From positions 46,658,390-46,722,389 of the forward strand of contig NC_030384.2 of assembly GCF_001625215.2 (NCBI RefSeq): a stretch of DNA of 64,000 nucleotides. Direction: 5' to 3'. This document shows, in pieces, positions 6,922-37,335 of this stretch. The DNA comes from Daucus carota subsp. sativus (Eukaryota; Streptophyta; Magnoliopsida; Apiales; Apiaceae). Position numbers and translations under genes: made by a program. Within the stretch, counting starts at the first letter, position 1. Each line of letters begins with the position of its first letter. Under the pieces are notes generated by a model that saw only the letters and a program-made list of their open reading frames with translations, was not told the DNA's origin and did no database searches.

Positions 6922-9900
6922 TCATAGTGCTTTTAGAATCAAGTTTGCCCCATGTTGAGGTTGTATAGTTAATACGGTGGAAGGAGCGTGTATATAGGAT
7001 GGGGAAAGCACAAAAGAAAAGCGTTGTAAGATCATTGATAGTGCCATTTTAGCTTCCAGCATTGCAAAATTTTGTCCAATGCAAATCCGCGGACCTAAGC
7101 CAAATGGAAAATATACTCCTTTTCCCTTTGTTGCTTTTGACACGCCTTCAAAAAATCTCTCTGGATTGAATTCCTTAGCATCATCACCCCAGATTTCTCT
7201 GTCATGATGCATTAGGATGATAGGTAGCTGCACTGTAACTCCAGCCGGTAGAAATATCTCTCCTAATTTGACATCTTGATATACAGCGCGAATTAGGAAA
7301 ACTGCGGGTGGGTATAATCTTAGGCTCTCAAGCAAAATCATATTAACCTGCAGACCAAAGACATTTAAAGCACTAGTTCAACATGTGCCTTTGTCAAGAA
7401 ACAAATATTCTAAACTTCCATTAACATGCAACTTAAACTATAGTAATAAAAAAATAATTATCGACCCTTTGCTGCTATCACATTATACATCACAATATTT
7501 GATAAAAAATTCACACTTACAAGTTGATAACTTACTTAAAAACGTTACCAAGTGCTTATAATAAAACTTACAAGTTTGAGGCGATTCAACCCATCAAGAT
7601 CTGGTTTATCATTTCCAAAGACCTGAAAAACTTCTTCTCTGGCGCGCTCTTGCCAATCTGAATGTTGACTCAATAGAACCATAGCCCACGTAAGTAGATT
7701 CGAAGTTGTCTCTTGTCCAGCAAAATAGAATAACTTACACTCTTCGATAACCTCATCCACAGACATTCCATATTTCATATCTTTGTTTTCTTTAATTTCT
7801 TCAGAATTTGATTTCAATAATAAACCCAACAAATCGTCATGAATATACTCTTCTACTTTCATTGCCAGCAACCGCTTGTTAATCATAGACCTCAGTGCAG
7901 ATCTCACCTCACTCTCAATCTGCCTCATCCTTTTCATTCTTTTGGTTGGCAAAAATCTACATTTAAAAGATTCTAATAAACATCAATCCTAGTAGATGAA
8001 ACACCAGAAGATTTTAGACAACTTGCAAAAACAGAGAGGTGGAATAAAAACCTCATTCCTGGGAGGTACAATGTTTGTGTAGCTTGCATCAACAGCTCTC
8101 CTTGTTCTTTCTGTAGTTGAAATATTTGTCTCCCTTCTGCATAGCTACTTCCAAAGGCTGTACGTGAAATGACATCAGCTGTTAGAGTTCCCAAATCCGG
8201 CCATACATCCAACTCGCATTGCCCCTCAGCAGAAACCATCTTCTCCCATTTGCTCATTATTTCACTACAACTTAAATACATGGCTGGCAGCATATCCTGT
8301 TTATATACATCATAAAAAAGGAAGACAATAGTTGTTAATACAATAGAACAATAACTGACAATATATCTTCCTGCTTGGCACTTGCTATCATTCAGATAGT
8401 ACTGATGAAAATGACACTATTAGGTTCTATATCACGGAGCAACGGATCGAAATTTTTTTACTTGAATTAAAGAAAGTCACCTGGAGCAACAACCTACATA
8501 TATCATCAATATTTTTCTACTTAAAATAAAAAATCTACTAAATGTTTAAAAACAGCAATATGTGCTAAATACTTTTATCTATCATCAATCTACAACTTCG
8601 AACAATGTCCCATGTTCCATATATTATTTAGCATAATATGTTCAGTTTTATATTTGAATTTTGTAGATCGCCAAGATAGCAACAGGGATGACCTTTAACT
8701 TCTCAAGATGGAAAGCAGGATTCATAATTTTCCGGTGTTTGGCCCATGTCTCACCCTCAGCACTTACAAGTCCACTTGCGAGCAACTTAAATAAAGGATT
8801 ACCTCCCCTGAGTTTCTGGAAGTTAGAGGTCTTATTTAAGGCCTCTTTTATAAGATTAGGGTCCGTGATGTAGACTGCTGGTCGTGGCCCTAGCCACACA
8901 AATGACTTCTTGCCTGCAAGAAAGTATAACATAATTAAAGCCATTAGAAATTTTCAGTAAAAGGAGGAAGGAATTGAGGACTAGTTTTCTTTTGCCAAGT
9001 TAACTGACTAGCGTTTGTAGTAAACAACTTTGAAAGGGTAGAGTTCATATTTTTTGAACAATTAAGATGAAAAAATCACACACGCTTTGCTGGGAGTCTG
9101 GGACTACAGACTAGTCTCGCCGAATGTGAGACAGCTGAGTAAAAAAACAGTACATTGTCAAACTACATACAATAAGTACAGTCCAACTTCCAATTGAAGC
9201 AAGGGTTCCTACTGAAAACTTAAGCATAGAAACCTTCTAGATTAACAATAAGAAATCTTTTGCTCACTGATGAAATATTCTTGATGAATGACGAGCGCAT
9301 ATAAGAAAGAATATGTGTTTAACAACTTTAAAGAGTAAGAATAAAAATCCCTGGAGAAAATCACCTTCGCGTAATGCTCTCAAGACCTAGTAGTACAGTA
9401 GATGGGCTTATATTCTAACACTCGCCATAGGTCACTTAACTAGCAAATTTGCCATTTACTAATCACATGATGCCTTGCTTTGAATCAAGTTGGAAAGATC
9501 CCTCAGATGCGATCGTGTCAACTAAAAGATTTCATTTTCGTATATAAGTTTGTCCATTTAAGCTTGACAATGACAAGGATAAATTACCCTTCCTCTTAAA
9601 CCTAAAGGTGTTATGAAAGGGCTTACCAATATTATATTATATATTCAACAGATATGGACACTTGAAGAATAAAGCTTCCATGGATAGTTGGCAGAACCAA
9701 AATTCTTTCATAAATGAAAGTTCGGAGTTTCTTTGACAAGAGATAAAAATAAGCCGGTCATGTGTTAACTTAGGTGTGTAATGTTTCTATAATATTCTGC
9801 GCTAATGAGTGATTGAGTTGTGCTATTAGAAAACCGATGTATCACAATGTGTTGTTTCACATGTAGATGCTTAAGAACTGATTATTATGCGCAAATATGT

Positions 9901-11022
9901 TTACTTCTGTGGAATACAGATGACTTCTCCTTCACTATGAACAACCAAGGCAGATGAATTGATATAATTTGTCACTACTCACTAGGCTAATCGTCAACTC
10001 ACAATTTTAATGCTACAATTTGTAAAAATATAATATACAATCCAGTTAAATCCTCCTCCCGACGTCATAAGATTTTAGAGAAACTAATGCTACACCTCCA
10101 CGTCTGCAAGAGGAGGCAGAATCTTTTTAGCATAACAAGTATGTATAAACCATGGGAAAAGTTGGAGACCATTATTTTATTGGAGACATGCAAAGACCAT
10201 CATATTTTGTATAATAATATTTTTGCAATGTTCATGTACAAAAGTGGTCTTCATTCCAAAAAACAGTTTATGAGCTAAAAACTGCGGTTCAAAAATGTTG
10301 TTTTTAGATTTACAAAATAGTTTTTCACATAATAATTTTTTAATCTATTTATTTAACAAAATTATTCCTCTGCTATTGAAATTATTTAAAAATACCCTTT
10401 CCGGAAAGTCTAATTAAAGAAAATAAATACTATACACTTAATCGAAAGCTAAGAATTCAAAATTCAAAATAGATGAAAAACTGCTTGATATATATAAAAA
10501 CAATTTTTCAAAACAACATGTTTTGATTTTATGAAAAGCAAGTCCATGTGGTTTTCCAGCTTTTGCCGGATTACACTATCAAAACTCAATAAAAACATTT
10601 TTATTATATTTTAAGTCAAAGAAAAAATTATAAGCTTACAACATTTTTTTAACAAGGTGTTTTTCTAACACAAGACAAGGTGTTTTTAATTGGACTTAGA
10701 AACAGAACCCGGATAAATGAATGACGAAACGAAAACGCATACCGTGTTTACTAATAGCAGTAAATACAGTTGGAGTAGCGCGAGGTATAATATCGTCAGA
10801 CAAACTGATGGGCTTGGACCTGGCCTCTTTCCTAGCGGCAGCGAGTTCTTTAACGTCGCCATACAAAAGCCTGTAAGGGTTTCCTTTAAAGCCCTGATTT
10901 CTCAGAATCTTTTCCAGCTTCTTGGGCCTGATCCAAATCCAGTTGAGTAGTCTCCATGCTAACACCACAACGTATGCCAAAACCAAGCTTCCTATTACCT
11001 TGAAGTATATATCTAACTCCAT
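6922..11022 (-). CDS. CYP72A: CYP72A cytochrome P450, gene A of the array
   Basis: Five exons: 11022-10743, 8913-8693, 8296-8052, 7956-7572 and 7347-6922. All introns are GT-AG with phases 1-0-2-0, giving 518 aa, normal for CYP72A. An N-terminal membrane anchor (residues about 5-28) is followed by basic RPKK, as in ER-bound P450s. Key motifs: I-helix FAGQETTSN near residue 328, ESLR (ExxR) at 384-387, FNPERF at 437-442, and haem loop [10 protein letters not shown] with the iron-ligand Cys at about 466. The start is the ATG matching MELDIYFK in gene B. CYP72As use NADPH-P450 reductase to hydroxylate or cleave terpenoid scaffolds; the substrate here cannot be read from sequence. The closest relative in the window is gene B. 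A TATAAATA box lies about 100 bp upstream of the start codon (11121-11128). Intron 1 is 1.8 kb. Confidence 0.95.
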
Positions 11023-11120
11023 CACTGTGTGTATAGGTATGTGTAAAAGAAAGAAGGTGAGAGGATACCAGCGTGATGTTTGATGATTTAGAGTGAGGAG
11101 TGAGGACTAATGGACGATGA

Positions 11121-11128
11121 TATTTATA
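11121..11128 (-). promoter_or_regulatory. Probable TATA box of CYP72A gene A
   Basis: TATAAATA lies on the minus strand 99-106 bp upstream of the start codon, in a segment conserved upstream of gene B (about 20,430). Gene B reads CATAAATA there, with the first T changed. Confidence 0.5.
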
Positions 11129-12158
11129 TCTGTTTTTGGGGCTGAGAATGACACTGATATTATATTTGTTTAGAAAATTCAACAGAATTAATCAAAAATT
11201 GAATATCATCGTATATTAAATAATCTTAATTGAAAATCATCAAAATTTTGAGTATAAATTAAAATCCTGAAAATATAATCAAATTTTATAGTATAATTTA
11301 AATTTTAATTAAATATTTTAAGATTCTGATACCGTTTCTAAAATCCGAATCGGATATAACCATATTTGTTGAAGAAAAGTTTGTTTGATATTCCGATTGA
11401 ATATGCCGCTAAAAGCAAACCTGATCGTGGTAAACTCTTAGATAAAAAATAGTTAACATATCAAAAATAAAAAATAAAAATAACCTAATGAAAATAAGGT
11501 ACTCCAACCATATTTTTTTGTCAATAATTTTAGTCAAACTCGTGAGGATGATTATAATTATCGAATCACTACAAATTTATAACAAATGTCACATTGCCAA
11601 TCATCGTAACAATATATTATATTATAATAACTTCAAAGAAGAATATGTTATATTTAAAATATAATGAATGAATACATGAAACAAAATTTTACAAATTCAA
11701 CAAAATTTACATGATATATTGAGATCCAGTTCAACCAATCATTATAACTAACTCAAAATCAGAGATGCCGAAATAAAATACTATCTCTGTTCCAACCATT
11801 TTTTATGATTTCTTTTTTGTTTCCATCCAATTATTTAAATTTCAAAATTACCAAATATCATCAACTGGTCTCACTACTTCTCCACATTTTTCCTCTTTTC
11901 ACACGACTTCTACTTCACTATCTTTCTTTTATACTGTAAAATTTAATTAGTCTTATCATTTCATGCGTTTTTTTTTCTTTTTCTGCTGCTTTATATATAT
12001 TTTTTAAACTTCATGTCAAAATCATACATAAATAACGGGACGATAAGTCGATAACAAACGACAAGCGAGTGAAGTGTTTCCATGGGTGGGACCGAATTAA
12101 ATATGTGGGTGTATACGATTTGGAATTTTGTGCTTTGAGGTTAATGTTGTACTTAAAA

Positions 12159-15073: not shown

Positions 15074-18000
15074 TCATAGTGCTTTTAGAATCAAGTTTGC
15101 CCCATGTTGAGGTTGTATAGTTAGGACGGTGGAAGGAGCGTGTATATAGGATGGGGAAAGCACAAAAGAAAAGCGTTGTAAGATCATTGATAGTGCCATT
15201 TTAGCTTCCAGCATTGCAAAATTTTGTCCAATGCAAATTCGCGGACCTAAGCCAAATGGAAAATATACTCCTTTTCCCTTTGTTGCTTTTGACACGCCTT
15301 CAGAAAATCTCTCCGGGTTGAATTCCTTAGCATCATCACCCCAGATTTCTTTGTCATGATGCATTAGGATGATAGGTAGCTGCACTGATACTCCAGCCGG
15401 TAGAAATATCTCTCCTAATTTGACATCTTGATATACAGCACGACTTAGGAAAATTGCGGGTGGGTATAATCTTAAACTCTCAAGCAAAATCATATTAACC
15501 TGTAGAACAAAGACATTTAAAGCACTAGTTCAACATGTACCTTTGTCAATATACAAATATTCTAAACATCCATTAACATGCAACTTAAATTATAGTAACG
15601 GATATGCAACTTAAATTATAGTAACAAAAAATTATCGACCCTTTTCTGCTATCATATTATACATCATAATATTTGATAAATATTGAAACAAGTTCATACT
15701 TGCAAGTTGATAACTTTGTTAAAAACGTTACTAAGTGCTTAATCTAAAACTTACAAGTTTTAGGCGATTCAACCCATCAAGATCTGGTTTATCGTTTCCA
15801 AAGACCTGCAAAACTTCTTCTCTGGCACGCTCTTGCCAATCTGAATGCTGACTCAATAGAATCATAGCCCACGTAAGTAGATTTGAGGTTGTCTCTTGTC
15901 CAGCAAAATAGAATAACTTACACTCTTCGATAACCTCATCCACAGACATTCCATATTTCATATTTTTGTTTTCTTTGATTTCTTCAGAACTTGATTTCAA
16001 CAATAAACCCAACAAATCGTCATGAATATACTCTTCTACTTTCATTGCCAACAACCGCTTGTTAATCATAGACCTCAGTGCAGATCTCACCTCACTCTCA
16101 ATCTGCTTCATCCTTTTCATTCTTTTGGTTGGCAAAAATCTACATTTAAAAGATTATAATAAACATCAATCCGAGTAGATGAAACACCAGAAGATTTACA
16201 GAGAGGAGGAATAAAAACCTCATTCCTGGGAGGTACAATGTTTGTGCAGCTTGCATCAACAGCTCTGCTTGTTCTTTCTGTAGTTGAAATATTTGTCTGC
16301 CTTCTGCATAGCTACTTCCAAAGGCTGTACGTGAAATGACATCAGCTGTTAGAGTTCCCAAATCAGGCCATACATCCAACTCGCATTGCCCCTCAGTTGA
16401 AACCATTTTCTCCCATTTGCTCATGATCTCAATACAACTCAAATACATGGCTGGCAGCATATCCTGTTTATATACATCATAAAAAAGAAAGACAATAGTT
16501 GTTAATACAATAGAACAATAACTGACAAAATATCTTCCTGCTTGGCACTTACTATCATTCAGATAGTACTGATAAAAATGACATTATTAGGTTCTATATC
16601 ATGGAGTAACGGATCGAAAATCTTTTACTTGAATTAAGTTATGTAATAGCATCCATACTAAAGAAAGTCACCTGGAGCAACGACCTACATATATCATCAA
16701 CATTTTTCTACTAACAAAAAAAAAAATCTACTAAAAGTTTAAAAACAGCAATATGTGCTAAATACTTTCAACTATCATCAATCTACAACTTCGAACAATG
16801 TCCCATGTTCCGTATAAATTTAAGCTTAATATATTCAGTATTATAATGTTTGAGTTTGGTAGAGGGCCAATATAGCTACAGGGATGACCTTTAACTTCTC
16901 AAGATGGAAAGCAGGATTCATAATTTTCCGGTTTTTGGCCCACGTCTCACCCTCAGCACTTGCTAGTCCATTTGCGAGCAACTTAAATAAAGGATTACCT
17001 CCCCTGGGCTTCTGGAAGTTAGAGGTCTTATTTAAGGCCTCTTTTATAAGATTGGGGTCTGTGATGTAGACCGCTGGTCGTGGCCCTAGCCACAGAAATG
17101 ACTTCTTGCCTGCAAGAAAGTATAACATAATTAAAGCCACTAGAAATTTTCAGTAAAAGGAGGAATACAGGACTAGGTTGTTTTCTTTTGCCAAGTTAAT
17201 TGACTAGATTTTGTAGTAAACAACTTTGTAACGGTAGAGTTTACTATTTTTGGAAAATTAAGATGAAAAAATCACACATGCTTTGCTGGGAGTCTCACCG
17301 AATGTGAGACACCTGAGTGAAAAAAATTTACATCATCAACATACATACAATAAGTACAGTCCAACTTCCAATTGAAGCAAGGGTTCCTACTAAAAACTTA
17401 AGTATAGAAACCTTCTAAATTAAAAATGAGAAATCTTTTGCTTCCCCTGATGAAACGTTCTTGATGAATGACGAGAGCATATAAGAAAGAATTTGTGTTT
17501 CACAACTTTACAGAGTAAGAATAAAAATCCCTAAAGCAAATCACCTTTTCTTAATGCTCCCAAGACCTAGTAGTACAGTAGATTGGCTAATATTCTAATA
17601 CTCATCATAGGCCACTTACTAGCTAAATTCCATTTACTGGGCATATGATGCCTTGCTTTGAATTAAGTTGGAAAGATCCCTCAGACGTGATCGTGTCAAC
17701 TAAAGGATTTTATTTTCGTCCATTGAAGCTTGACAATGACAAGGATTTACCCTTTCTCTAAAGCCTAAAGGTGTCATGGAAGGGGCTTACCAAAATTATA
17801 CTATATATTCAACAGATATGGAAACTTAAGAATAAAGCTTCCGTGGATAGTTGCCGGAATCAAAATTCTTTCATAAATGGTTGGCTAAATTGGATCCGTA
17901 AAATATCGTGTAAAATTTGTCAAACTTGATACTGACTAAATTGATTGGCTATATTTTAAAAATGGTATATTATTATTATTATTTCAAGTTGTTATAAATA

Positions 18001-20341
18001 GAATATATCGTTTTAAATATAATAATAGATTATGTGAAATCTTGCGATAGGTTTCTAAAGGTCGGTCAACTGTAGCCAACATTAAAGCATCTCCAACCAT
18101 GTAGAACCCTTAACCAAAAATTAATAATACATATCATAAATAAAAAATATAGATTATGTAAGAAAAAACTCAACTCCATTCGTACATTCTCATTGTCTAT
18201 GAATATAGTCCTAATGTTTGCTATATTTTTTTATTCATAGTCCTAATGTTTCCTATATTTTTTTAAAAAAATGTCATTTATTACCATATTGAAGCGGTAA
18301 ATTTTATTTATTATTGCAACCTAAAATATTAATAACATATTATTTTTAAAATATAACCAACCAAGTTAAAGATATTTCACATAATGTCTTACAGGTCCTA
18401 TTTTAGCTAATCTCGTTGGAGGTACTCTTAGTGAGTGGGCCAACCTCGTTGGAGATACTCTTAGTGAGTTGGCAGTGTTTTAATTATGGTATGCTTTATT
18501 AAATTTTAGCTAAAGGTTTTGGAGAGTTGGAGATGCTCCTGTCGTTGGATAATATTTTTATTATGCTTCAAAAAAGAGTAGCCTTTTTAATGTCAAACAA
18601 TATTTAAATTTTAAAAAATATTCAAAATAAAATCCTCAAATAACAATACACTGCTTATTAGTATATTAAAATACAGCAAATAATTTGCATGCAAATGTGA
18701 GTATAAAGCATACATAATATTTTTATTTTTAAGAAAAATTAAGGACATTTTTTAGAGTTATAGAAGAATATGCGGAACTTGTAAAAATTAAAAATAAAAA
18801 AACATCTACTTAGAATTAATAAACTTACTTTCTAATATCCTGAAATAGTTCATTTTCAAGACATTTAAAATGTATAATGTATCAAAAGAAGCTAAAATAT
18901 ACAACATGTAATAATATCCGATTAGTAATCTGTTAAATAGTAATCTATTTATTTAACGAAATTATCCCTCCGCAATTGAAATTATTTAAAAAATACCCTT
19001 CCTCAAAGTCTTATTAAAGAAAATAAATAGTAAAAGAGAATCTAAGGTTGGGTAACTTGAATGAAATGAAATGAGAAGAGAATGAAATGAAAAATTACAT
19101 GGAAGTTTAAGTAGAAAGAAGAGAGTATGAATGACAAAATATGAGTGGATCTAAATTTTGAATGGAAGATGATGTTGGAGTGAAATGAACATTTTTACCA
19201 AAACATATGGATTAGATTTTTAGTTCAAATAATTGGAAGAAATGATCGAAGGCAAATTATAGACATTTTTTCTAATCACCTCCAATTCAATTTAGAGGAG
19301 TGTATTGGATTAGAATTTTAAAGCATTTTTTTTGCATTCATGAAATCCGAGGGTATTCAATTGGGATTGTTCGAAATCCATTAAAATCTTGAGGTATTCA
19401 ATTGAGATTTTAAATTATGCCACAAAATCTGGTGGTATTCAATTGGGATTTTAAATTATGCTTTAAAATCTGATGGTATTCAATTGGGATTGTTTAAAAT
19501 CCATTAAAATCTGATGGTATTCAAATGCTGATGGATTTTTTTTGAATTTCATAAAATGATGGATTTTGTGGCATTCTTTAGTGTATTTTAAGTTTTTTGA
19601 AATCCCACCAAAATCAATGGGATTTTGAAGCATTGTGCTTAAATCCTATCAACTCTACGACATTTTATCAAGAATCCGCACAAAATCAAAATCACATACA
19701 ATCCATTAAAATCCATAGACTAAAAACAATCCATTAAAATCTTAATCGAATACACCCCTGTTAGAGTCTAAATTTCATTTCATTTTCCTCAATTTCATTC
19801 ATCCAACTAAACTCGACCTAAAAATCTAGGAATCTAAAGTCTCCATTTGACTGTAGCAGATAACATAACCAGCTTTTACGGTAAGTTGTCATTGATTTCC
19901 CTATCAAACTTCATCAAATATTATTTTTTTTATATTATAATTTAAAATATGTAAATAAAAAAAATACAAAACAATTTTGTGCAAAAGCACTTTTCTAAGC
20001 AGCATTTTTCTAACTCTCAAATAGACTCTGAACGAATGAATTGCGAAACGAAAACACGTACCGTGTTTACTAATAGCAGTAAATATAGTTGGAGTAACGC
20101 GAGGTATAATATCGTCAGACAGGCTAATGGGCTTGGACCTGGCCTCTTTTCTAGCGGCAGCGAGTTCTTTAACGTCGCCATACAAAAGCCTGTAAGGGTT
20201 TCCCTTAAAGCCCTGATTTCTCAAAATCTTTTCCAGCTTCTTGGGCCTGATCCAAATCCAGTTGAGTAGTCTCCATGCTAACACCACAACGTATGCCAAA
20301 GCCAAGCTTCCTATAATCTTGAAGTATATATCTAACTCCAT
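15074..20341 (-). CDS. CYP72A: CYP72A cytochrome P450, gene B of the array
   Basis: Exons 20341-20062, 17109-16889, 16463-16219, 16139-15755 and 15499-15074 have exactly the same lengths as those of gene A, giving 518 aa. In exon 5 only five of the first 139 residues differ from gene A, and similarly few differ in exon 4, so this is a recent duplicate. [19 protein letters not shown] and [10 protein letters not shown] are all kept. The frame continues upstream of 20341, but the ATG aligning with gene A (MELDIYFK) is chosen. Intron 1 is about 2.95 kb, roughly 1.1 kb longer than in gene A, because of MITE insertions at 18,085-18,540 and 19,045-19,819. The 3' flank (from 14,780) and the distal upstream DNA also match gene A. 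Substrate unknown; it probably matches or overlaps that of gene A. Confidence 0.95.
18085..18540. mobile_element. MITE in intron 1 of CYP72A gene B (GCATCTCCAAC family)
   Basis: Left end AAGCATCTCCAACCA and right end AGTTGGAGATGCTCCT are inverted copies, about 455 bp apart. Internal copies of the same motif (CTCGTTGGAGATACTCTTAG, twice near 18,410-18,470) suggest internal duplication. The element lies in the part of intron 1 that does not align with gene A, so it probably arrived after the A/B duplication. Superfamily not assigned. Confidence 0.6.
19045..19819. mobile_element. Outer MITE in intron 1 of CYP72A gene B, itself interrupted by a second MITE
   Basis: Left terminus AGGTTGGGTAACTTGAATGA and right terminus TTCATCCAACTAAACTCGACCT are imperfect inverted copies, followed inward by GAAATGAAATG-rich arms. 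Most of the central part is a separate element (19,298-19,760). The corresponding position in gene A intron 1 lacks both elements. Superfamily uncertain; the end sequences resemble Tourist/hAT-like MITEs. Confidence 0.6.
19298..19760. mobile_element. Inner MITE nested inside the 19,045-19,819 element
   Basis: Ends read GAGTGTATTGGATTAGAATT on the left and, reverse complemented, GGGGTGTATTCGATTAAGAT on the right. TTAGAG directly flanks both sides (19,292-19,297 and 19,761-19,766), as expected of a target-site duplication. Inside are several imperfect tandem units of about 40 bp containing GGTATTCAATTGGGATT (19,370-19,530). Confidence 0.7.
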
Positions 20342-22268: not shown

Positions 22269-24452
22269 CTAGGACTTAACCGATTGTAGGATCAAATGTG
22301 CACCATGCTGAGGCTGAAGTGTTAGAATGGTGTGTGGAGCATGAGTATAAGACGGGGAAAGCACAAAGGAGAATCGTTGTAGAATCATGGCCAGTGCCAT
22401 TTTAGCTTCCAACATGGCAAAGTTCTGGCCTATACAAATCCGAGGCCCCCAACTAAAAGGTAGATACGATGCTTTTCCCTTTGTCACTTTTAGTAAACCT
22501 TCTGCAAATCTTTCTGGATTGAATTGCTTAGCATCATCGCCCCATAATTCAACGTCGTGATGCAACAAGAGCACAGGTATCTGGAGAATTACTCCTGCTG
22601 GAAGAGTAGTATCTCCTAATTTGGTCTCTTTATCTATATTTCTACCAAGGACAACTACGGGTGGGTATAATCTCAGAGCCTCCAGCAAAATCATATTTAC
22701 CTGTCACCATAGCGGAAATGCAAGAGTTTCACTAGCTATAACTATGTATTCAGAATTTCAGATACCGTTTGGCATTGCTGTTGCAGACAGCTAACAACAG
22801 TTTTTTGCTGAAAATCAGGTGAAAAACTTAAAACAGTTTTTTTGAACAACGGTTTTTAGTTCAAAAGATGCTTTTAGGAAAAGCAAATCGTCCCATGCAT
22901 GCTAGCTGTTTTTCAAAATAATAGATGTGTGAGACAAACTTACAACTTTGAGGCGATTTAAACCATCAAGATCTGGTTTGTTGTTCCCAAACGTCTGCAA
23001 GACCTCTTCTCTAGCCCGTTTCTGCCAATCTTGATGCTGACCGAGCAAAATCATTGCCCATACCAGTGTATTTGAGGTTGTCTCCTGTCCTGCAAAATAG
23101 AACAGCTTGCACTCTTCGATTACTTCATCGATTGCCAACCCGAAACTTTTATTGTTTCCATGTTGTTCAATTTCTTTTAAATTGCTATCCAGGAGTATGC
23201 CCAGTAAGTCACCCTGGTTGGTTTTGCCTCCTTCGATTTCTCTCAATCTTTTGTCAATGATACTTCTAATGGTAGCTTTAACTTCTTTGGCGATTTCCTT
23301 CATCCTCTTGTTACGTTTGGTTGGCAAAAGTCTACAATAAACAGACTTATTATGCATCAAAAGAAGCAGAGAGGAATAATAATGAAATTTCCCGAAAAGG
23401 AAACTGAAATAAAAACTGAGAGACGTCTTTCAAATTTTATATACCTCATTCCGGGAATGTATACTGATTGGGAAGCCTCGACTAGAAGATTAGACTGTTC
23501 TCTCTGGAGCTGAAAAATCTTCCTTCCTTCTTCATAACTACTACCAAATGCTGTACGCGAAATGACATCACTAGTCAAATTTTCTAGATGATGGTATACA
23601 TCCACCTCACACTGCCCCTCAGCAGAAACCATCTTCTCCCATTCGTTCATTATGTCGTTACAACTTAAGTACATGGCAGGTACCATATTCTGCATTGAAA
23701 TATGGGAACAGAAATAAGGAGAAAGTTCATAAGCCTAAGTAACACATGCAAGTATCAAACCTAACCTATTAACTGAATTTTATATTTAACACTCTAGTGA
23801 AGGTTAAGTTAAGACATTGCAAAGGGACAGTAGCTGTAGTAAACCAGAAACAGACCTTCAACTTGTCAACATGGAAAGCAGGGTTGATAATTTTGCGGTG
23901 CTTGGCCCATTTGTCACCCTCATAGAAAACCAGTCCAGTCACGAGCAACTTGATCATAGGATTACCTCCTTTGACTTTCTGAAACTGATTACTCTTATTC
24001 AGAACCTCTTTTATTGTGTCTGGATCCATAAGGTATACCAGTGGCCTTGGCCCGAGCCATACAAATGAATTCTTCCCTGCAATAATAAAAAAGGATGGAG
24101 TATGAAAAATTAGACTGTTTAAAGAAAATCTACTGAATCCTCAAACAAACTATGGAAGATATGCCAAGATCAGAATACCATGTTTCTCCACTGTGTGAAC
24201 GTCGCCAGGAACAACACGTGGCAGAATATCATCACCTAGTCCAATAGGCCTGGATTTAGCTTCTGCCAGCATTTTTACCAGCTCTCTTATATCTCCGAAG
24301 AAAATTCTGTACGGGTTTCCCCTGAGCCCCTGCTTTCTCAGGAACTTCTCTAATTTCCTCGGCCTTAACCACACCCAAATCAAAATTCTCCATCCCAAAA
24401 TCACAAGTCCTATAGCCAAAAAGGCTCCGAAACACATGTAGATTAAGCCCAT
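22269..24452 (-). CDS. CYP72A: CYP72A cytochrome P450, gene C of the array
   Basis: Exons 24452-24179, 24076-23856, 23689-23445, 23331-22944 and 22700-22269 give 519 aa. The N-terminus ([19 protein letters not shown]) is a membrane anchor followed by [14 protein letters not shown]-helix [13 protein letters not shown] and FNPERF are present. The haem loop reads [10 protein letters not shown], with Ser where D, E, F and G have Gly ([10 protein letters not shown]); the FxxGxRxCxG consensus still holds. Gene C is closer to gene E than to D, its neighbour, even at the start of intron 4. Intron 4 (22,701-22,943) carries extra DNA with a hairpin-like GTTTTTTGCTG core that E lacks. Introns 1-3 are compact (under 170 bp), unlike A and B. 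Substrate unknown. Confidence 0.95.
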
Positions 24453-24949: not shown

Positions 24950-24952
24950 TTA

Positions 24953-25457: not shown

Positions 25458-27507
25458 TCAGATTTTAGGCTCAAACCGACTTAAGATCAAATGTGCGCCA
25501 TGCTGAGGCTGAAGTGTTATGACAGTGTGCGGAGCATGAGTATAAGACGGGGAAAGCACAAAGGAGAATCGTTGTAGAATCATGGCCAGTGCCATTTTAG
25601 CTTCTAACATGGCAAAATTCTGGCCAATACAAATCCGAGGTCCCCAACCAAAGGGCAGATACGATGCTTTTCCCTTTGTTACCTTCACTACACCTTCAGA
25701 AAATCTTCCTGGATTGAATTGCTTAGCATTATCGCCCCATAATTCAACGTCGTGATGCAACAAGAGAACAGGTATTTGGAGAATTACTCCAGCTGGAAGA
25801 GTAGTATCTCCAAGTTTAATCTCTTCATGTATACTCCTACCGAGTGCAGCTACTGGAGGGTATAGTCTTAAAACCTCTAGCAAAATCATATACACCTGTA
25901 CTCAATATAGAAATCAAGAGCTTTACTAATTTTAGATTTTCTGAGTAACAAAATACTTTCTTAGCATGACATTGTATTTTGATATAATAGCAATATGAGA
26001 CAAACTGACCACTTTGAGGCGATTTAAACCATCAAGATTTGGTTTGTTGTTCCCGAACGTCTGCAAGACCTCTTCTCTAGCCCGATTCTGCCAATCTTGA
26101 TGCTGACTTAAAAGAATCATTGCCCATACCAGGGTATTTGAGGTTGTCTCCTGTCCTGCAAAGTAGAACAGCTTGCATTCTTCGATAACTTCATCAATAG
26201 TCATCCCAAAACTTGTATTGTTTTCATGTTGTTCAATTTCTTTGAAATTGCTATCCAGCAGTATGCCCAACAAGTCACCCTGGTTGGTTTCTCCCCCTTC
26301 AATTTCCTTCAATCTTTTGTGAATGATACTTCTTACAGTAACTTTAACTTCTTTAGCTATTTCCTTAATCCTATTATTGAGCTTAGTTGGCAAAAGACTA
26401 CAACAAACAGTCTTAGTATGTAGAAGCAAAGGAGCACAAAAGGAAATCAATCAAAGAGAGATATCATCTGAAATTTGTATACCTCATTCCAGGAATGTAT
26501 ATTGACTGGGAAGCCTTCATTATATGAGTTGACTGTTCTCTTTGGAGCTGAAAAATCTTTCTTCCTTCTTCATAACTACTACCAAATGATGTACGTGAAA
26601 TGACATCGCTGGTCAAATTTTCTAGATAATGACGGACATCCACCTCACATTGCCCTTCAGCAGACACCAATTTCTCCCATTCGTTCATTATGTCGTTACA
26701 ACTTAAGTACATGGCAGGTAGCATATTCTGCATTGAAATAAGGGAACATAAGAAGAAACTGCATAATGTTCAGTGACATACATTCAGACATTTTAAGTTT
26801 TAACATTTTAATGAAGCTCCAGTCAAGACATTGCAGAGGAACACTGGTGATACTAAATTACATGACATTGTACTTCATTGTAAAAATAGTGATAAATTTT
26901 ATATGGATATGTAATAGCTATGAACAGAATAGGCCTTCACCTTCAACTTATCAACATGGAACGCGGGGTTAATGATTTTCCTGTGTTTCGCCCATTTATC
27001 ACCCTCATAGTAAACCAGTCCAGTCGCGAGCAATGTGGTTACAGGATTATCTCCCCTGACTTTCTGAAACTGATTACTCTTGTTCAGAACCTCTTTGATT
27101 GTGTCTGGATCCATAAGGTATACTAGTGGTCTTGGCCCAAGCCATACAAATGATTTCTTCCCTGCAATATTGGTAATAGAGTATGAAAATTAAAATGGCA
27201 GGACAAATATACTAGCCAGTGGCACTCAAATACCATTTTTTTCTACAGTGTCAACGTCGCCAGGCACGACACGTGGCAGAATATCATCAGATAGTCCAAT
27301 AGGTTTGGATTTGGCTTCTTCCCCCATCTTTATCAGATCTTTAACATCTCCAAAGAAAAACTTGTACGGATTTCCCTTGAACCCCTGCTTTCTAAGGATA
27401 TTCTCTAGCTTCCTCGGCCTCAGCCACACCCAATTCAAAATTCTCCCTCCCACGATCAAAAGTCCAATAACACCAAACACTCCTAAACACGTGTAGATTA
27501 AGTTCAT
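25458..27507 (-). CDS. CYP72A: CYP72A cytochrome P450, gene D of the array
   Basis: Exons 27507-27234, 27161-26941, 26727-26483, 26397-26010 and 25895-25458 give 521 aa. An in-frame ATG also exists at 27540, but the start at 27507 (MNLIYTCLG) aligns with C and E. I-helix [13 protein letters not shown] and haem loop [10 protein letters not shown] are intact. The usual PERF motif reads FNPGRF, replacing a commonly conserved Glu; E shares this change. At the exon 3/4 join the residue is Ser where the other six genes have Arg ([10 protein letters not shown]). The C-terminus ends SRFEPKI, slightly longer than its neighbours'. It shares a 3' flank motif with E. Substrate unknown. Confidence 0.95.
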
Positions 27508-27540
27508 GATCGAATGAAAATTAGTGAGATATTGATCCAT

Positions 27541-28339: not shown

Positions 28340-30390
28340 CTAGAACTGAACAGACTGTAAGATCAAATGTGCACCATGCTGAGGCTGAAGTGTTATAATG
28401 GTGTGTGGAGCATGAGTATAAGACGGGGAAAGCACAAAGGAGAATCGTTGTAGAATCATGGCCATTGCCATTTTAGCTTCTAACATGGCAAAGTTCTGGC
28501 CTATACAAATCCGAGGTCCCCAGCCAAAGGGTAGATATGACGCTTTTCCCTTTGTTACCTTTCCTACACCTTCAGAAAATCGTCCTGGGTTGAATTTCTT
28601 AGCATCATTGCCCCATAATTGAACGTCGTGATGCAACAAGATCACAGGTACTTGGAGAATTACTCCCGCTGGAAAAGTAGTATCTCCTAATTTAGTCTCT
28701 TCATTTATACTTCTACCAAGTGCAGCTACTGGTGGGTATAATCTAAGAGCCTCCAGCAAAATCATATTCACCTGTAACCATAATGGAAATGCAAGATTTC
28801 ATATGCTATAAAAATGTATTCCATGAAACATTACCTAACCATGTGCAAACTTGCTGCATATGTACAGAAGGTTGATATAATTGGCCTTTCAAAATAATAG
28901 ATGTATGAGACAAACTTACAACTTTGAGGCGATTTAAACCATCAAGATCTGGTTTGTTGTTCCCAAACGTCTGCAAGACCTCTTCTCTAGCCCGTTTCTG
29001 CCAATCCTGATGCTGACCGAGTAAAATCATTGCCCATACAAGTGTATTTGACGTTGTCTCCTGTCCTGCAAAATAGAACAGCTTGCACTCTTCGATTACC
29101 TCATCTATTGTCATCCCAAAACTTTTATTGTTTTCATGTTGTTCGATTTCTTTGAAATTGCTATCCAGCAGTATGCCCAGTAGGTCACCCTGGTTGGTTT
29201 CTCCCCCTTTAATTTCTCTCAGTCTTTTGTCAATGATACTTCTTATGGTAGCTTTAACTTCTTTGGCAATTTCCTTCATCCTCTTATTACGTTTGGTTGG
29301 CAAAAGCCTACAATAAACAGACTTGGTATGCATTAAAGAAGCAGAGGGGGATAGTAAAATCCACCAAAAAAGAAACAGATTTTTTTTAAAAAAACAAGAA
29401 GAGAGATGTCTTATAAATTCTATATACCTCATTCCAGGAATGTATATTGTCTGGGAAGCTTCGATTACAAGAGTAGACTGCTCCCTTTGAAGCTGAAAGA
29501 TCTTCCTTCCCTCTTCATAACTACTACCAAATGCTGTACGCGAAATGACATCACTGGTCAAATTTTCTAGATATTGATATACATCCACCTCACATTGCCC
29601 ATTAGCAGAAACCATCTTCTCCCATTCGTTCATTATGTCGTTACAGCTCAAGTACATGGCAGGTAGCATATTCTACATTGAAATAAGGGAACAGAAATAA
29701 GGAGAAACTGCTAATTCAGTTATATTTTCAACATTTTAGTGAAACTCAAATTAAGAAATTATAAACAGCTATAGACCTTTAACTTGTCAACATGAAAAGC
29801 AGGGTTGATGATTTTCCGGTGTTTCACCCATTTATCACCCTCATAGAAAACCAGTCCAGTCGCGAGCAGCTTGGTTAAAGGATTACCTCCCTTGACTTTC
29901 AGAAACTGATTACTCTTGTTGAGAGCCTCTTTTATGTCGTCTGGATCCATCAGGTTCACCATTGGTCTTGGCCCAAACCATACAAATGAATTCTTCCCTG
30001 CGACAATGGGGATGATGATTAAAATGGCAGGACAACAGATTCATACTTACACAGAGAATGAATGAAGTTATCATATAATCAATCAACTGTGGAAATATAT
30101 GCCAAAATCAAAATACCATGTTTTTCGACAGTGTGAAAGTTAATAGGCACAACACGCGGAAGAATATCATCAGCTAGTCCAATAGGCTTGGATTTAGCTT
30201 CTGCCAGCATCTTTACCAGCTCTCTTATATCTCCGAAGAAAATTCTGTAGGGGTTTCCCTTGAGTCCCTGATTCCTCAGGATCTTCTCCAATTTCCTCGG
30301 CCTTAACCACACCCAATTCAAAATTCTCCATCCCAAAATCATAAGTCCTATAGCAAAAAACACTCCGAAACACATGTAGATTAAGTCCAT
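28340..30390 (-). CDS. CYP72A: CYP72A cytochrome P450, gene E of the array
   Basis: Exons 30390-30117, 29997-29777, 29672-29428, 29307-28920 and 28771-28340 give 519 aa. Exons 3 and 4 and the intron between them happen to share one open frame, so a fused reading is possible if intron 3 is retained; the conserved sites (ATGAG/GT and TTGTAG/G) argue for splicing. [13 protein letters not shown] and [10 protein letters not shown] are intact; PERF reads PGRF, as in D. The second half of exon 4 is identical to gene C over more than 50 codons. Membrane anchor: [19 protein letters not shown]. Substrate unknown. Confidence 0.95.
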
Positions 30391-31001: not shown

Positions 31002-33234
31002 TTAGAGCTTGTGTACAATCAAGTTAGCCCCATGTTGCGGTTGAAGAGTTATCAGAGTAGCTGGAGCATGTGTATAGGAGGCCGAAAGCTCAAACGAGAA
31101 GTGTTGTAAAATGGTGGCAAGAGCTAGTTTAGCTTCCAGCATTGCAAAGTTTTGGCCTAAACATATCCTGGGTCCCCATCCGAATGGAAAATAGACTGCC
31201 TGATTACTTTTTGCTGCCTTGGACACTCCTTGCGCAAATCTTTCTGGATTGAACTCTTTTGCGTCCTGTCCCCAGAGATTTTGGTCATAATGGAGGAGCA
31301 AAATTGGCAGAGACACTTCCGTTCCAGCAGGTAATATCAGTTCTCCTAATTTAGTATCCTCGTCCACCTTTCGAGTCAGTGTATGAGCCGGTGGATATAA
31401 TCTTAAAACCTCATGCAAAATCATGGTAATCTGCACAAATTTAATCAAACAATCAACATATGATCGACATTTAAAATTTGTTTATAAGCATATGTATATA
31501 AGTACGACTCACGATTTTGAGGTGGTTAAGATTGTCAAAATCAGGCTTGCCATTATTTCCCAGCACTTGAAGAACCTCTTCTCTGGCTCGACTTTGCCAT
31601 TCAGGGTGAATGCTGAGTAAAATTATGGTCCAGACAAGGACATTTGAGGTAGTTTCTTGACCAGCAAAATAGAAAAGCTTGCATTCGCCTATCACATCGT
31701 CCAGGCTCATTCCAACACTTTTTGATCCATTCTGGAGTTGCTCATTGGAAATGGATTCCAACAATACCCCCAGCAAGTCATCGCTGCTACTTTCTCCTGC
31801 CTGCATTGCCTTGGTCTTTTTGTCAATAATGTCTTCTAAGGATGATTGTATCATTCTATTTAGCTCCTTCATTCTCTTGTTATTCTTGGTTGGTAAAAAT
31901 CTATATATGGGATACACAGTTATAATCTATGTTAAAAATGAGATGAGATTAATTAAGTACATAATACATAACTAAACCGAGTAATACCTCCATCCAGGAA
32001 TGTATACTGATTGCAGAGACTTCATTACGAGCTCAACTTGTTGGCGCTGAGTCTCAAATACCTTGATTCCCTCTTTGTAGCTACTTCCAAATGCTGTACG
32101 CGAAATCACGTCACTTGTTAATGTATGAAGATACGGTGCAATGTCCAATTCGCACCACCCATCCTTCTCTACCTTTTTCTCCCATTTACTTACCAATTCC
32201 ATGCAACTAATATACATTACTGGTAGCATTAGCTGCATCAAGATGAACAAAATTAACATCTCGGTGTATTTTATAGTGCAACAGCAGAGAAATCAGAAAT
32301 TATCAGGACTGGGACAAATTTAGCAACGGATTCATGTTTTTAAGAAAAGGATCCAGTTTAGCTACTCAAATTTCCGTCAATCTACAGATTTTTTTCAACA
32401 ATAAAATTAAGTCAGAACGGAGACTAGTCAAATTCGTATCACACAGTCATACGGAGAAAAAGATCAGGCAAGTAGAACTGTGAAGTACCTTTAACTTGCG
32501 AAGATGGAAAGCTGGAGTAAGAAGTTTCTTGTGGTGAGCCCACTGGTCACCGTTGATGCTTGCCAAACCAAGAGAAAACATTCTCACAGTTGGATTTTGC
32601 TTAATCTTCCTATATATGTAGTTTTTCGACATCACTTCTTTCATGAGCTCAGGATCTGTGATCAGCAACCTCGGATTCGGTCCAAACCAAATGAAACTCT
32701 TCTTCCCTGCAAGTAACATATGCAAGACTTGTAATATTTATCCTATTTATCTCACCCTCATTACTACTTTCTCATATCAATTTCAACTAACAGAACAAAT
32801 ATATTTAAATCCGTTCATTTGTTTGTACTAATAATCTTTAAATTTTTAGTTAGTCATATTAAATCGGATCTTGAATCATGGTTGCAGGCTTGCAGCCTTA
32901 CAGACAAAGCAAATGAAGATCTAAGGTCAATGACTCAATGGATGATAGTCTTACCATATTTTTCGACAGTGTGATGAATGAACGGGCTTGCACGTTGGAC
33001 AACATCATCGGAGAGATTTATAGGCTTTGAAAGAGCATTTCTAATCATTCCTGAGTTGTCCTTCGAATCTCCATACAACAAACGATAAGAGTTCCCATCA
33101 AACCCTTGCTTCCTCAAGCACTTCTCCATCTTCCGCGGCCTCAGCCACACCCAATTCAAGACTCTCCACGCCCATCCCACAAACAAGGCCAAAACCAAAC
33201 TCACCGCAATGTTTCTCAGTCCAACTATCTCCAT
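31002..33234 (-). CDS. CYP72A: CYP72A cytochrome P450, gene F of the array
   Basis: Exons 33234-32955, 32706-32489, 32232-31988, 31900-31513 and 31430-31002 give 519 aa. Exon 2 is 218 nt, one codon shorter than in A-E, a feature shared only with G. Anchor: [16 protein letters not shown], then [14 protein letters not shown]-helix [19 protein letters not shown] and haem loop [10 protein letters not shown] are intact. The residue before the exon 3/4 join is Trp (PGWR) instead of Met (PGMR in A-E). The sequence [21 protein letters not shown]-type region differs clearly from A-E, so F and G form a separate subfamily branch. About 250 bp of upstream DNA is conserved with G. Substrate unknown. Confidence 0.94.
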
Positions 33235-33384
33235 CACTCTCTAGCTACTCTGAATATCAGATGAAATGAAACAAATTAAGAGCTGAAGCTTATAGTTAAA
33301 TTATTAGGAGTTGTTACAAAGGGGATCATATATAATAAAATAAGAATTAAATAAGCAGCTGTGCAAGGTGGGACTGCAGAGAAT

Positions 33385-33400
33385 CATTTATATATTTATA
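33385..33400 (-). promoter_or_regulatory. Probable TATA box of CYP72A gene F, in a conserved promoter block
   Basis: TATAAATATATAAATG reads toward gene F about 150-165 bp before its ATG. The surrounding block (33,350-33,500) is conserved upstream of gene G (37,460-37,600), where the core reads CAAATATATAAAT. Shared flanking words include GGTCATTACTGA and TTTTTCAATCTGAT, suggesting retained regulatory sequence. Confidence 0.5.
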
Positions 33401-33499
33401 GATAACTGAATGCGGTCATTACTGACGCTCTGAAACTGATTTTTCAATCTGATACAGTACTGTACTAGATTTTACTTGGACCACTTTGTTCTTCGTCAC

Positions 33500-34940
33500 A
33501 TGTTTCATTGCTCTTACGTTGTTGACACATATTTCTAAAAGAAATTTCAGCTCTCCTGGTTCAACCACGCCTTTCATCCCGTCAAATGGTTGCTTTTTAT
33601 TATTATTATTATAACAAAACAAGTATCGGAACCCAGACGAGACAAATCACCGAATTGTCGACATGACACACATAAACAAAGACAAAATAAGACTCTGTCA
33701 CCAGTTCTTGAATTTAAGTACTGTACCTAACATGAGTTGGCTCTAACTTATCTATCTGACACTAATAATGTTCTGGGACTAATTCAACTAACCGGCCATC
33801 GATGTTATTTTAAGATGCTGAAACAAACATTAATTCGATCATATATTATCTTCAACTAATGAGTTGAATGTTGTTGAAATATCAATTGTATACAGACGGC
33901 TACAAAATATCAGTAGACTGTGTTTCTGATTCAAATATTTAACAGAAAAACTTACTTAACCAGAGAAATCATGAATCAGCTCATATCAATAAGCGTGTCT
34001 GCCCCATAAAAATGGAGCGGAGCCAACTCCTAACTTTGGGTCACCGTCAAATTTATGAGCATATTTAATTAAGATTGTACAGGATTTTTTTTTTGTTCTA
34101 ATGTATTGAATTAGAATTTAAAAGATTCAGAAATTTTTTGGTAAATTGGGATGGGAATGAAATTAATATTTTAAAATCTGAGGATATCCTCAGATTTATT
34201 CTTAAAATCTGGAAAGATTTCATTAAGATTTGTAAGATACTTTAAATTTGATGATTTTTGACAGTCGGTGATTTTGTAAGATTCCTACACACATTTACAT
34301 CAGTTTAGAATCAAATCAACTACGATCTATTAAACTACTACTCCCTCCGTCCCCTCCAATTGTTATCGTTTAGAATGGAGGGTTCGACACACATTTTAAA
34401 ACTCATAAAATATAGCTTTATAATTTATTTTTAAAATTTTTTTCTAGATAAAAATCTAATGTTTAAATTTTTATACAGAAAATGAAAATTATAAAAATAA
34501 GTTATATAACTACATTTTATATGAGTTTTAAAATGCGTGCCGCACACTCAATTCCAAACGATAAGAATTGGAGGGGACGGAGGGAGTATTACTCTATTTA
34601 TTAGTTCCTGAAAAGAAATTCAAAATCGAATTTGAATTTGAATATATATCCCCGCACCCAAAAATTGGAGTGGGTCACCATTAATAGTAATTAAAATCAA
34701 TGGGTCAGGCCCAAGGAAATTAACAGGCCTAGGCTCATCTTAAAGATCAAACCCATGATCAAGAGGAGAACATTCCCAAAAACGGAAGTATGCCCACAAG
34801 TGAAGATAGTTTACTTAAAAGGTCAGGCCCAGGCGCCCATCAGCCTCATTTTAATGCTCATTTGTAATTTTATGTTATCAACAAGTGAACAATTAAAACA
34901 GTAGTAGTTTTCCGGGGAAAAAAAAAAAAACAGTAGTAGT
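33500..34940. other. Intergenic DNA between CYP72A genes F and G
   Basis: No gene is supported. It contains a degraded relative of the GTGTATTGGATTAG-type MITE (about 34,085-34,340) and a Stowaway MITE (34,341-34,586). Positions 34,640-34,860 are less AT-rich and look like inserted repeat DNA of unknown family. Confidence 0.55.
34341..34586. mobile_element. Stowaway-type MITE upstream of gene F
   Basis: Starts CTCCCTCCGTCCCCTCCAAT and ends ATTGGAGGGGACGGAGGGAG, nearly exact inverted copies of about 20 bp, flanked by TA at 34,339-34,340 and 34,587-34,588. Length 246 bp; noncoding. It lies about 1.1 kb upstream of the gene F start codon and just beyond the 3' end of gene G. Confidence 0.85.
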
Positions 34941-37335
34941 TTAGAGCTTGTGTACAATCAAGTTAGCCCCATGTTGCGGTTGAAGAGTTATGAGAGTAGC
35001 TGGGGCATGTGTATAGGAGGCCGAAACCTCAAATGAGAAGTGTTGTAAGATGGTAGCAAGAGCTAGTTTAGCTTCCAGCATTGCAAAGTTTTGGCCTATA
35101 CATATTCTGGGTCCCCATCCGAATGGAAAATAGGCTGCCTGATTACTTTTTGTTGCATTCGACACTCCTTGTGCAAATCTTTCGGGATTAAACTCTTTCG
35201 CGTCCTCTCCCCAATGATTCTGGTCATAATGCAGGAGCAAAATCGACAGAGACATTTCCACTCCAGCAGGCAATCTCAGTCCTCCTAATGTACTATCTTT
35301 GCGTACCTTTCGAGTTAGTGTATGTGCTGGTGGATATAATCTTAAAACCTCGTGCAAAATCATGGTAACCTGCACAAATTTAAGTATTTTAGTTGGGGGC
35401 CACCTACCAGTGCATAAGCACTCGATTACCAGGTGTTGGGTTTAGTAGGGTGGTCCACACCCGGCGTTTACTTCCAAAGGTTCCGGTTAAAGAAATTAAC
35501 ATATGAACAGTAGTAATTGTGAATATGCATACTACTTACGATTTTGAGGTGGTTAAGATTGTCGACATCAGGTTGGCCTTGATTCCCCAACACTTGAAGA
35601 ACCTCTTCCCTGGCACGTCGTTGCCAGTCAGGGTGAATGCTGAGTAAAATTATGGTCCAGACAAGGAGATTTGAGGTGGTTTCTTGGCCGGTAAAGTAGA
35701 AAAGCTTGCATTCACCTATCACACCATCCAGGCTCATTCCAACATTTCTTGATCCATTTTCGAGTTGCTCATTGGAAATGGATTCCAACAATACCCCTAG
35801 CAAGTCATCGCTGCTACTTTCTCCTGACTGCATTGCCTTGGTCTTTTTTTCAATTATGTTTTCTAAGGATGATTGTATCATTTTATTTAGCTCCTTCATC
35901 CTCCTGTTATTCTTGGTTGGAAGAAATCTAAATATAGATAAACAGTTATAATCCGTGTCAATAAGGACATTAGATTAAATGCTTAGTTGTTACATAACAA
36001 CTAAACCGAGTTGTAGTACCTCCATCCAGGAATGTATACTGTTTGCAGAGACTTCATTACAATCTTAAGTTGTTGGCGTTGAATCTCAAATACCTTGCTT
36101 CCCTCCTTGTAGCTACTTCCAAATGCTGTACGCGAAATCACATCACTTGTTAATGTTTGAAGATAGGGTGCAATGTCGAATTCACACCACCCTTTCTCCT
36201 CTACCTTTTTCTCCCAATTATTTACCAGTTCCGTGCAACTGATATACATTGCTGGTAGCATTAGCTGTTTCAGGATCAGCAAAATTTCCGTCAATTTATA
36301 ATTTCAGTTGCTAGTACAAGGAAAAAATTAGGCAGGTAAAACATTGAATTACCTTCAACTTGTGAAGATGAAAAGCTGGGGTGAGAAGTTTTTTGTGTTG
36401 AGCCCACTCGTCCCCATTCATGCTCGCCATGCCATGAGAAAACGATCTCACAGTTGGATTTTGCATAGGCTTCTTGAAAATGTAGTGTTTAGTCATCGCC
36501 TCTTTAATGAGCTCAGGATCTGTAATAAGCAACCTTGGAGTAGGTCCATTCCATATGAAACTATTCCTCCCTGCAAGTAACATATACAAGACTCGTAAAC
36601 TACTTGCTGCAAATCACCAGAAATCGTTATTTCCTTGTACTGATATCTCCAGATTATAGTACTATAGGACATAGGTCTGATTCTACTTACATGCATTACC
36701 AGTAGTCAGTAGAAGGAGTCACTGATTATTTCTTTACGGTTATAAAAATTCGAACTTGCTAACACTCTGTCTGAATTATTCAAGACTACATGTATACTTA
36801 TCAATTTCAATCAGTTTTCAATATTCATTTGATAGCATGTTCTGATACATAATATCATGCAACGATGATCATGAAACAAAGTTTGATCAAACAGCTAAAT
36901 ATATGAATCAATAAGAGTGATCTTTATTTTTTTTAATTAGTCATATCATATCAAGTTATATTCGTTTTTTCATAACCAGATCTTAACATATGGTTGCAGC
37001 TCTGAAGACAAAAATATAAAATTGAAGATCCAAGTTTAATGCATGCCAGAGTTACCATATTTCTGGACAGTGTGATGGATGAACGGGCTTGCACGCATGA
37101 CAACATCATCGGAGAGATTTATAGGCTTTGAGAGAGCATTTCTAGTCATTTCTGAGTTTTCCTTCAAATCTCCATACAAGAACCGATAAGAGTTTCCATG
37201 AAATCCTTGTTCCCTTAGGTACTTGTCCATCTTCCGCGGTCTCAACCATAGCCAATTCAAGACTCTCCATGCCCATCCCACACACAAAGCCAAAACCAAA
37301 CTCACTGCAATGTTTTTCAACCCTGCTGTCTCCAT
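34941..37335 (-). CDS. CYP72A: CYP72A cytochrome P450, gene G of the array
   Basis: Exons 37335-37056, 36570-36353, 36264-36020, 35927-35540 and 35369-34941 give 519 aa, matching gene F exon for exon. EVLR, FNPERF and [10 protein letters not shown] are intact. The I-helix reads FTGQETTSN: Thr replaces the Ala found in the other six genes and in the general AGxET/DT oxygen-activation motif. The codon is ACC (near 35,692), against GCN elsewhere. Intron 4 is about 170 bp, against 82 bp in F, because of an insertion around 35,385-35,490. The frame is open with all splice sites canonical, so the gene is probably expressed, but activity could be altered. Substrate unknown. Confidence 0.94.
35385..35490. 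repeat. Insertion in intron 4 of CYP72A gene G
   Basis: Intron 4 of G has about 90 bp not present in gene F. It contains an imperfect inverted pair (GGCCACCTACCAG and GGGTGGTCC) around GATTACCAGGTGTTGGGTTT. It may be a short MITE or SINE remnant; the family is not recognised. Confidence 0.4.

Follow-up and report, generated by a model that had tools for sequence, protein, structure and literature searches.

We analysed a window of 64,000 nucleotides of carrot DNA (Daucus carota subsp. sativus, assembly GCF_001625215.2, contig NC_030384.2, hereafter C4; C4:46,658,390-46,722,389), in which positions 6922-37335 of the minus strand hold seven CYP72-type cytochrome P450 (P450) genes, A to G, spliced by motif and intron phase. 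These genes are very probably the right-hand part of a ten-gene CYP72-type array that arose from two old founder lineages via repeated local duplication and that encodes predicted P450 monooxygenases. Each is divided into five exons by GT-AG introns in phases 1-0-2-0 and keeps an open frame of 518-521 amino acids (aa) without an internal stop, and the ExxR, PERF-type, I-helix and haem-cysteine motifs are recognisable in each of them. The spliced models thus bear out the claim of an earlier note on this DNA that there are seven intact five-exon genes with identical intron phases and full P450 motifs. The boundaries 6922 and 37335 are exactly the stop codon of A and the start codon of G, and seven copies of a direct-repeat family coincide with the positions of the seven genes.

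Results

Exon-level tblastn was run over 60 kb to the left of the window, the window itself and 20 kb to its right. At 1e-4 we found no eighth CYP72-type copy within the window, and to its left three complete CYP72-type genes: X1 (46,630,380-46,632,320, minus strand), X2 (46,638,790-46,641,839, inverted on the plus strand) and X3 (46,644,472-46,647,506, minus strand), whose spliced models are intact (517-518 aa). The contiguous array comprises ten genes in ~65 kb (C4:46,630,380-46,695,724), with both strands represented. The same-strand, 30-kb array of seven genes described in the earlier note therefore stands for the window genes, but the array runs on leftward and X2 lies on the opposite strand.

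Farther along C4, 220-275 kb to the right of the array and on the plus strand, we observed three truncated C/E-type copies, each with a stop within at least one matched exon piece, together with an intact F-type gene, H (522 aa). Among the matches listed, none to protein E at 1e-10 fell in 46.742-46.908 Mb. In the whole genome searched (441 Mb in 11 contigs), the last exon of E was matched at 59% or more in at least 28 places, four copies of a truncated gene excluded. Within C4:46908000-46977999, a 13-kb stretch with a truncated C/E-type gene has a repeat close by that is 99.7% identical, and this DNA is found again at >99% near the C4 contig end; these near-identical repeats represent either a very recent duplication or an assembly error.

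Several comparisons bear on the classification of the window proteins. Pfam PF00067 matched all four scanned proteins (A, C, D and G, E 2.7e-84 to 1.6e-91), and protein E, compared with solved P450 structures, matched CYP3A4 (E 1.9e-40). A hydrophobic N-terminal stretch, typical of plant P450s anchored in the endoplasmic reticulum (ER), is present in 7/7 proteins (maximum 19-residue mean 1.76-2.42). Our reference sequences for CYP72A1 and CYP72A15 are approximate, and the window proteins show 51-57% identity to them. With the approximate CYP72A15 as reference, A-E reach 55.0-56.7% and F-G 51.9-52.1%, and with the approximate CYP72A1 all seven lie at 51.3-52.9%. In the excerpted rules of PMC5036807, at least 40% identity to members defines the CYP72 family and at least 55% the CYP72A subfamily, with exceptions decided by trees. 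All seven genes also have the five-exon structure that the available part of PMC8536171 reports for clade II CYP72A.

Protein identity is 95.6% for A-B, 84.0-88.8% among C, D and E, and 84.2% for F-G, falling between these sub-branches to 63.4-65.1% (A-B with C-D-E), 57.1-59.0% (A-B with F-G) and 52.8-55.1% (C-D-E with F-G). Our main tree, built on exons 2-5 of 21 genes (11 from C4 and ten from elsewhere, including only two genes of the C3 cluster), recovered X1-X2 (support 100), C-D-E (100), F-G (98) and H with F-G (96), and the inner order of its X3-A-B group was not settled. The C5 gene at 8.848 Mb joined F-G-H (100), and that group joined C9 and C3 genes (99). F-G with their relatives separated from the side of A-E at a support of 100, and the kin of A-E include genes at C5:8.22, C5:8.866 and C3:53.94 Mb. 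In a second tree, to which three approximate reference sequences were added, A-E and their kin remained without F-G at 100, the join of F-G's group to C9 and C3 had 69, the deep nodes had supports of 29-53, and A joined X3 at 76.

These identities and the tree confirm the sub-branches A-B, C-D-E and F-G and the order along the DNA following relatedness, both as proposed earlier. What the earlier note had named as speaking against its view, a placement of the copies on unrelated branches, was found in part: for F-G, whose kin lie on C5, C9 and C3, but not for A-E, whose clade has a support of 100. As judged from the trees, the array holds two old lineages side by side, X1-X2-X3-A-B-C-D-E and F-G. 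We reject a simple expansion from one founder, given that F-G fall with genes of C5, C9 and C3 (the C9/C3 join drops to 69 in the second tree). In random order, seven genes would form three contiguous groups with a chance of 144/5040 (~3%), and ten genes in groups of 2, 3, 3 and 2 would be contiguous with a chance of 3456/3628800 (~0.1%). We also considered gene conversion among C, D and E and rejected it: the 41 polarised informative sites (25 C-E, 9 D-E and 7 C-D) are intermixed along the gene, with no clear tract.

Purifying selection maintains all seven window frames. Tip-branch omega ranges from 0.15 to 0.43 across the window genes, less than 1 in every one of them (p 1.1e-07 to 0.0063, uncorrected; F and G estimated on exons 2-5 with H and C5_8.848), and it is also below 1 in X1, X2 and H. 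In a neutral simulation with substitutions only, no indels and a branch divergence of half the pairwise synonymous divergence (dS), the probability of no stop was 0.0000-0.0355 per gene (4000 runs each). The earlier proposal that seven whole frames have been retained by selection is thus upheld by both results. G is less constrained than the background (p=0.013), and a free-ratio model outperforms a single omega (p=0.0021), so that constraint varies among branches.

We placed the substrate-recognition sites (SRSs) by alignment to CYP3A4, with bounds that we assume to apply. In the window groups, replacements per site amount to 0.505 in SRSs and 0.330 elsewhere (12/422 circular shifts as extreme), and the enrichment recurs in all recent groups (8/422) and over all eleven genes (1.533 in SRSs against 1.097 elsewhere; 14/422). 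Such a replacement density could also come from relaxed constraint.

Inside the array, dS is about 0.10 for A-B, 0.19 for X1-X2, 0.25 for both C-E and F-G, and 0.38 for C-D. The values to C5 are 0.92 (F with C5_8.848) and 0.77 (A with C5_8.22), and those for lectin genes between C4 and C5 are 1.11-1.42. By these estimates, the duplications within the array are younger than the C4-C5 divergence.

The lectin genes in question are B-lectin genes near X1-X3 (including C4:46642615-46644027), two of them lying between X1 and X3 and the other three farther left, and they are presumably EP1-like. Four of the five were identified by Pfam scan and the fifth by 89% identity; elsewhere in the genome, the sole match at 1e-40 adjoins the CYP72-type gene at C5:8.217 Mb. 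The lectin gene at 46625952 and X1, both on the minus strand, face a mirrored pair on the plus strand, X2 and the lectin gene at 46642615. Because the pairs mirror each other in order and strand, with dS of 0.14 for the lectins and 0.19 for X1-X2, the left end of the array likely underwent an inverted duplication of a two-gene block.

Genes and neighbourhood

Gene A (518 aa, 6922-11022, minus strand as all the following; exons 10743-11022, 8693-8913, 8052-8296, 7572-7956 and 6922-7347) matches PF00067 at E 2.7e-84 and has a tip omega of 0.23 (p=0.00087). Gene B is of the same length (518 aa, 15074-20341; exons 20062-20341, 16889-17109, 16219-16463, 15755-16139 and 15074-15499), with an omega of 0.15 (p=7.3e-07). 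Intron 1 measures 1.8 kb in A (8914-10742) and 2952 nt in B (17110-20061), compared with 72-485 nt in C-G. For C (519 aa, 22269-24452; exons 24179-24452, 23856-24076, 23445-23689, 22944-23331 and 22269-22700; PF00067 E 1.4e-88) omega is 0.23 (p=1.2e-07), and the same omega was obtained for D (521 aa, 25458-27507; exons 27234-27507, 26941-27161, 26483-26727, 26010-26397 and 25458-25895; PF00067 E 4.4e-87; p=9.9e-06). An alternative start of D, an in-frame ATG 33 nt upstream (532 aa), was set aside, since the start at 27507 matches D's relatives. Gene E (519 aa, 28340-30390; exons 30117-30390, 29777-29997, 29428-29672, 28920-29307 and 28340-28771) has an omega of 0.20 (p=1.1e-07). The second lineage is represented by F (519 aa, 31002-33234; exons 32955-33234, 32489-32706, 31988-32232, 31513-31900 and 31002-31430; omega 0.24, p=4.4e-06) and G (519 aa, 34941-37335; exons 37056-37335, 36353-36570, 36020-36264, 35540-35927 and 34941-35369; PF00067 E 1.6e-91; omega 0.43, p=0.0063). 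The PERF motif reads FNPGRF in D and E, the I helix reads TGQETT in G, and the membrane anchor is followed by GGR in D as against AWR or GWR in the other window genes. Just upstream of G lies a copia-type gag frame that is open over 392 aa (37881-39059, minus strand).

Other neighbours relate the locus to further parts of the genome. To the right of the array lies a trehalose-P-synthase gene whose best paralogs are at C6:28.27 Mb (dS 1.07) and C3:10.72 Mb (dS 1.19); the C3 and C6 copies differ from each other by a dS of 0.60, and a CYP72-type cluster is situated ~14 kb from the C3 copy. To the left, for the second piece of a putative heat-shock-factor (HSF) gene, the best long match elsewhere is at C6:28.25 Mb (56%). 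Six other matches were obtained for the gene at 46,729,728: at C5 8.79 Mb (63%), C3 10.71 Mb (39%) and C6 28.28 Mb (46%), and three on C2, C4 and C5, outside those blocks. The gene at 46,724,529 is presumably WRKY-like by its motif; its best paralog (64%) belongs to the C6 block, and no paralog of it was found in the C3 or C5 blocks. We read the array as sitting in one of four paralogous blocks (C4, C3, C5 and C6), of which the C5 one would be spread over ~650 kb. CYP72-type genes occur in the C4, C5 and C3 blocks, and none of the matches listed for protein E across the genome falls in the C6 block.

Ten neighbouring open reading frames (ORFs), four in the window and six to its left, were scanned with Pfam. 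B-lectin proteins account for four of the ten, one ORF had no match, and the others gave F-box/KIB, copia gag, trehalose-P synthase, Ras-type GTPase and a piece of an HSF DNA-binding domain. A plant biosynthetic gene cluster would bring together different enzyme families of one pathway; these ten ORFs include neither a scaffold synthase nor a transferase, and intron-split genes may have escaped the scan. At C9:17.7-25.6 Mb we observed dozens of mostly partial trehalose-P-synthase-like copies, ~47-57% identical to the window's gene and some with internal stops. Pieces of the HSF gene recur at C8:12.573, C9:6.126 and C4:46.429-46.432 Mb and look copied or captured; most of them are 87-96% identical and two are 64-71% identical.

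Discussion

We propose that local duplication would have repeatedly expanded two founder lineages on C4, leaving decayed copies farther to the right. Judging from the family, each gene would make an ER-anchored haem-thiolate monooxygenase, which would receive electrons from cytochrome P450 reductase and hydroxylate a hydrophobic specialised metabolite. Since the substrate-contact regions differ more than the rest of the proteins, the copies likely act on partly different substrates or positions. Our leading guess for the encoded enzymes is that they would oxidise triterpenoid or other terpenoid scaffolds.

Two candidate pocket sites were compared. Positions E141 and E391 of protein E align with what we take to be CYP3A4 S119 and A370, and would equal residues 149 and 398 of CYP72A63. 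At these putative equivalents, B, F and G have A/A, A and X3 have V/A, and C, D and E have V/V, with V/G in X1, L/G in X2 and G/G in H. Variation at these two sites hints at different pockets. In CYP72A63, as the excerpted study describes, the Leu149/Leu398 pair gives C-30 selectivity (PMC6901910). That pair is absent at the inferred equivalent sites of all eleven C4 genes.

Several observations weigh against our reading of the array. F and G show only 51-53% identity to the approximate CYP72A references, on which the CYP72A name rests, the splice sites of all seven genes are predicted from sequence alone, and the motif variants of D, E and G could reduce activity. X3, to the left of the window, has an omega of 0.64 that does not differ from 1 (p=0.21) and that lies above background (p=0.00054), so that this gene is either relaxed or recently adaptive. 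Site models on the eight-gene clade holding A-E gave no class with omega >1 (M1a/M2a p=1, M7/M8 p=0.27). These numpy codon models covered 515 codons, M7/M8 having six beta categories and relative branch lengths held constant, and were confined to that clade, without F, G and H, on account of the saturated dS from F-G to the other genes. Their topology was fixed with A next to B, and protein trees left A, B and X3 unsettled or joined A with X3 (76).

Why the copies have been kept can be explained in different ways. Copies with the same chemistry may persist for dosage or for expression in different places or at different times, a possibility that we entertain tentatively. The low omega in all window genes and the 95.6% identity of A and B would fit it, as would the upstream regions: of the 1500 nt before the ATG, only ~150 nt in A-B and 265 nt in F-G align, directly beside it, and C, D and E have short pieces in common farther upstream, besides the neighbour's last exon. 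The upstream similarity of C, D and E, being mostly that exon, was not used as promoter evidence. However, the sub-branches differ at 35-47% of residues, and over all eleven genes variation is higher in the SRSs than outside them; a single substrate for all seven does not fit easily with this. Diversifying selection, in which new products are favoured and repeated adaptive change of the active site keeps the copies, we consider unlikely. The replacement density is higher in SRSs in the window groups, in all recent groups and over all eleven genes, and sites likely equivalent to the CYP72A63 regioselectivity residues 149 and 398 (PMC6901910) vary among these genes. On the other hand, M2a and M8 found no omega >1 class in the eight-gene clade (F, G and H not included), and omega is well below 1 in every window gene. 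Moreover, relaxed constraint may also produce the SRS enrichment, and the SRS bounds and the site equivalence are assumed. The suggestion in the earlier note of selection on product diversity thus finds weak, partial support in the modest SRS enrichment, and the site models find no positive selection in the A-E clade.

It is highly improbable that the open frames are remnants of recent duplication without selection. A-B are young (dS about 0.10), omega of X3 does not depart from 1, and truncated copies lie farther right; yet omega below 1 in 7/7 genes refutes this explanation for the window genes as a whole, and the neutral chance of no stop is 0-3.6% per gene even without indels. That the array is partly an assembly artefact of duplicated haplotypes is more improbable still. 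C4 does carry stretches >99% identical, both at 46.908-46.95 Mb and close to the end of the contig, but the window genes differ at 4-47% of residues, their introns have diverged and the window contains no N. As for the two lineages of our preferred reading, C5:8.848 Mb (F-G kind) and C5:8.866 Mb (A-E kind) are linked, ~18 kb apart. Because genes of both kinds are linked on both C4 and the paralogous C5 block, selection might keep the lineages adjacent, perhaps as a two-step oxidation module on one scaffold with each half expanding locally, an idea that we regard as improbable.

The array is of an already published type and belongs to a well-known kind of gene cluster. The excerpted text of PMC6901910 places CYP72A tandem arrays in Medicago truncatula, other legumes, Barbarea, rice and Arabidopsis. 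In the M. truncatula arrays on chromosomes 2 and 8, as here, array membership matches tree subgroups, and identity within the chromosome 2 cluster is 81-94%, with one member excepted (PMC6901910, in part). Unlike M. truncatula, a single contiguous array here holds two deep lineages (F-G with A-E 53-59%). The same excerpts report that M. truncatula members oxidise beta-amyrin with different regioselectivity and that four tested enzymes gave no product (PMC6901910). Dioscorea zingiberensis, which is a monocot, unlike carrot, has 25 CYP72A genes, 14 of them on one chromosome; compared by exon number, its clade II genes are five-exon like the carrot genes, and one intron-free gene is named too (PMC8536171, as excerpted). 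Across angiosperms, the available part of Prall et al. (2016, PMC5036807) describes lineage-specific duplication of CYP72A, with clade differences strongest in SRSs. It further gives a change of the acidic PERF residue to glycine in Vitales (3/8) and Poales (5/51), as in D and E here, and 4-12 CYP72A genes in most species and more in some, such as 26 in potato, compared with the at least 28 places matching the last exon of E in carrot.

The carrot locus leaves existing knowledge of such arrays unchanged. It shows clearly how a P450 array can grow from two old founders, with dS-ordered steps, a likely inverted block and truncated copies nearby, and it would provide a natural variant set for linking CYP72A active-site residues to products.

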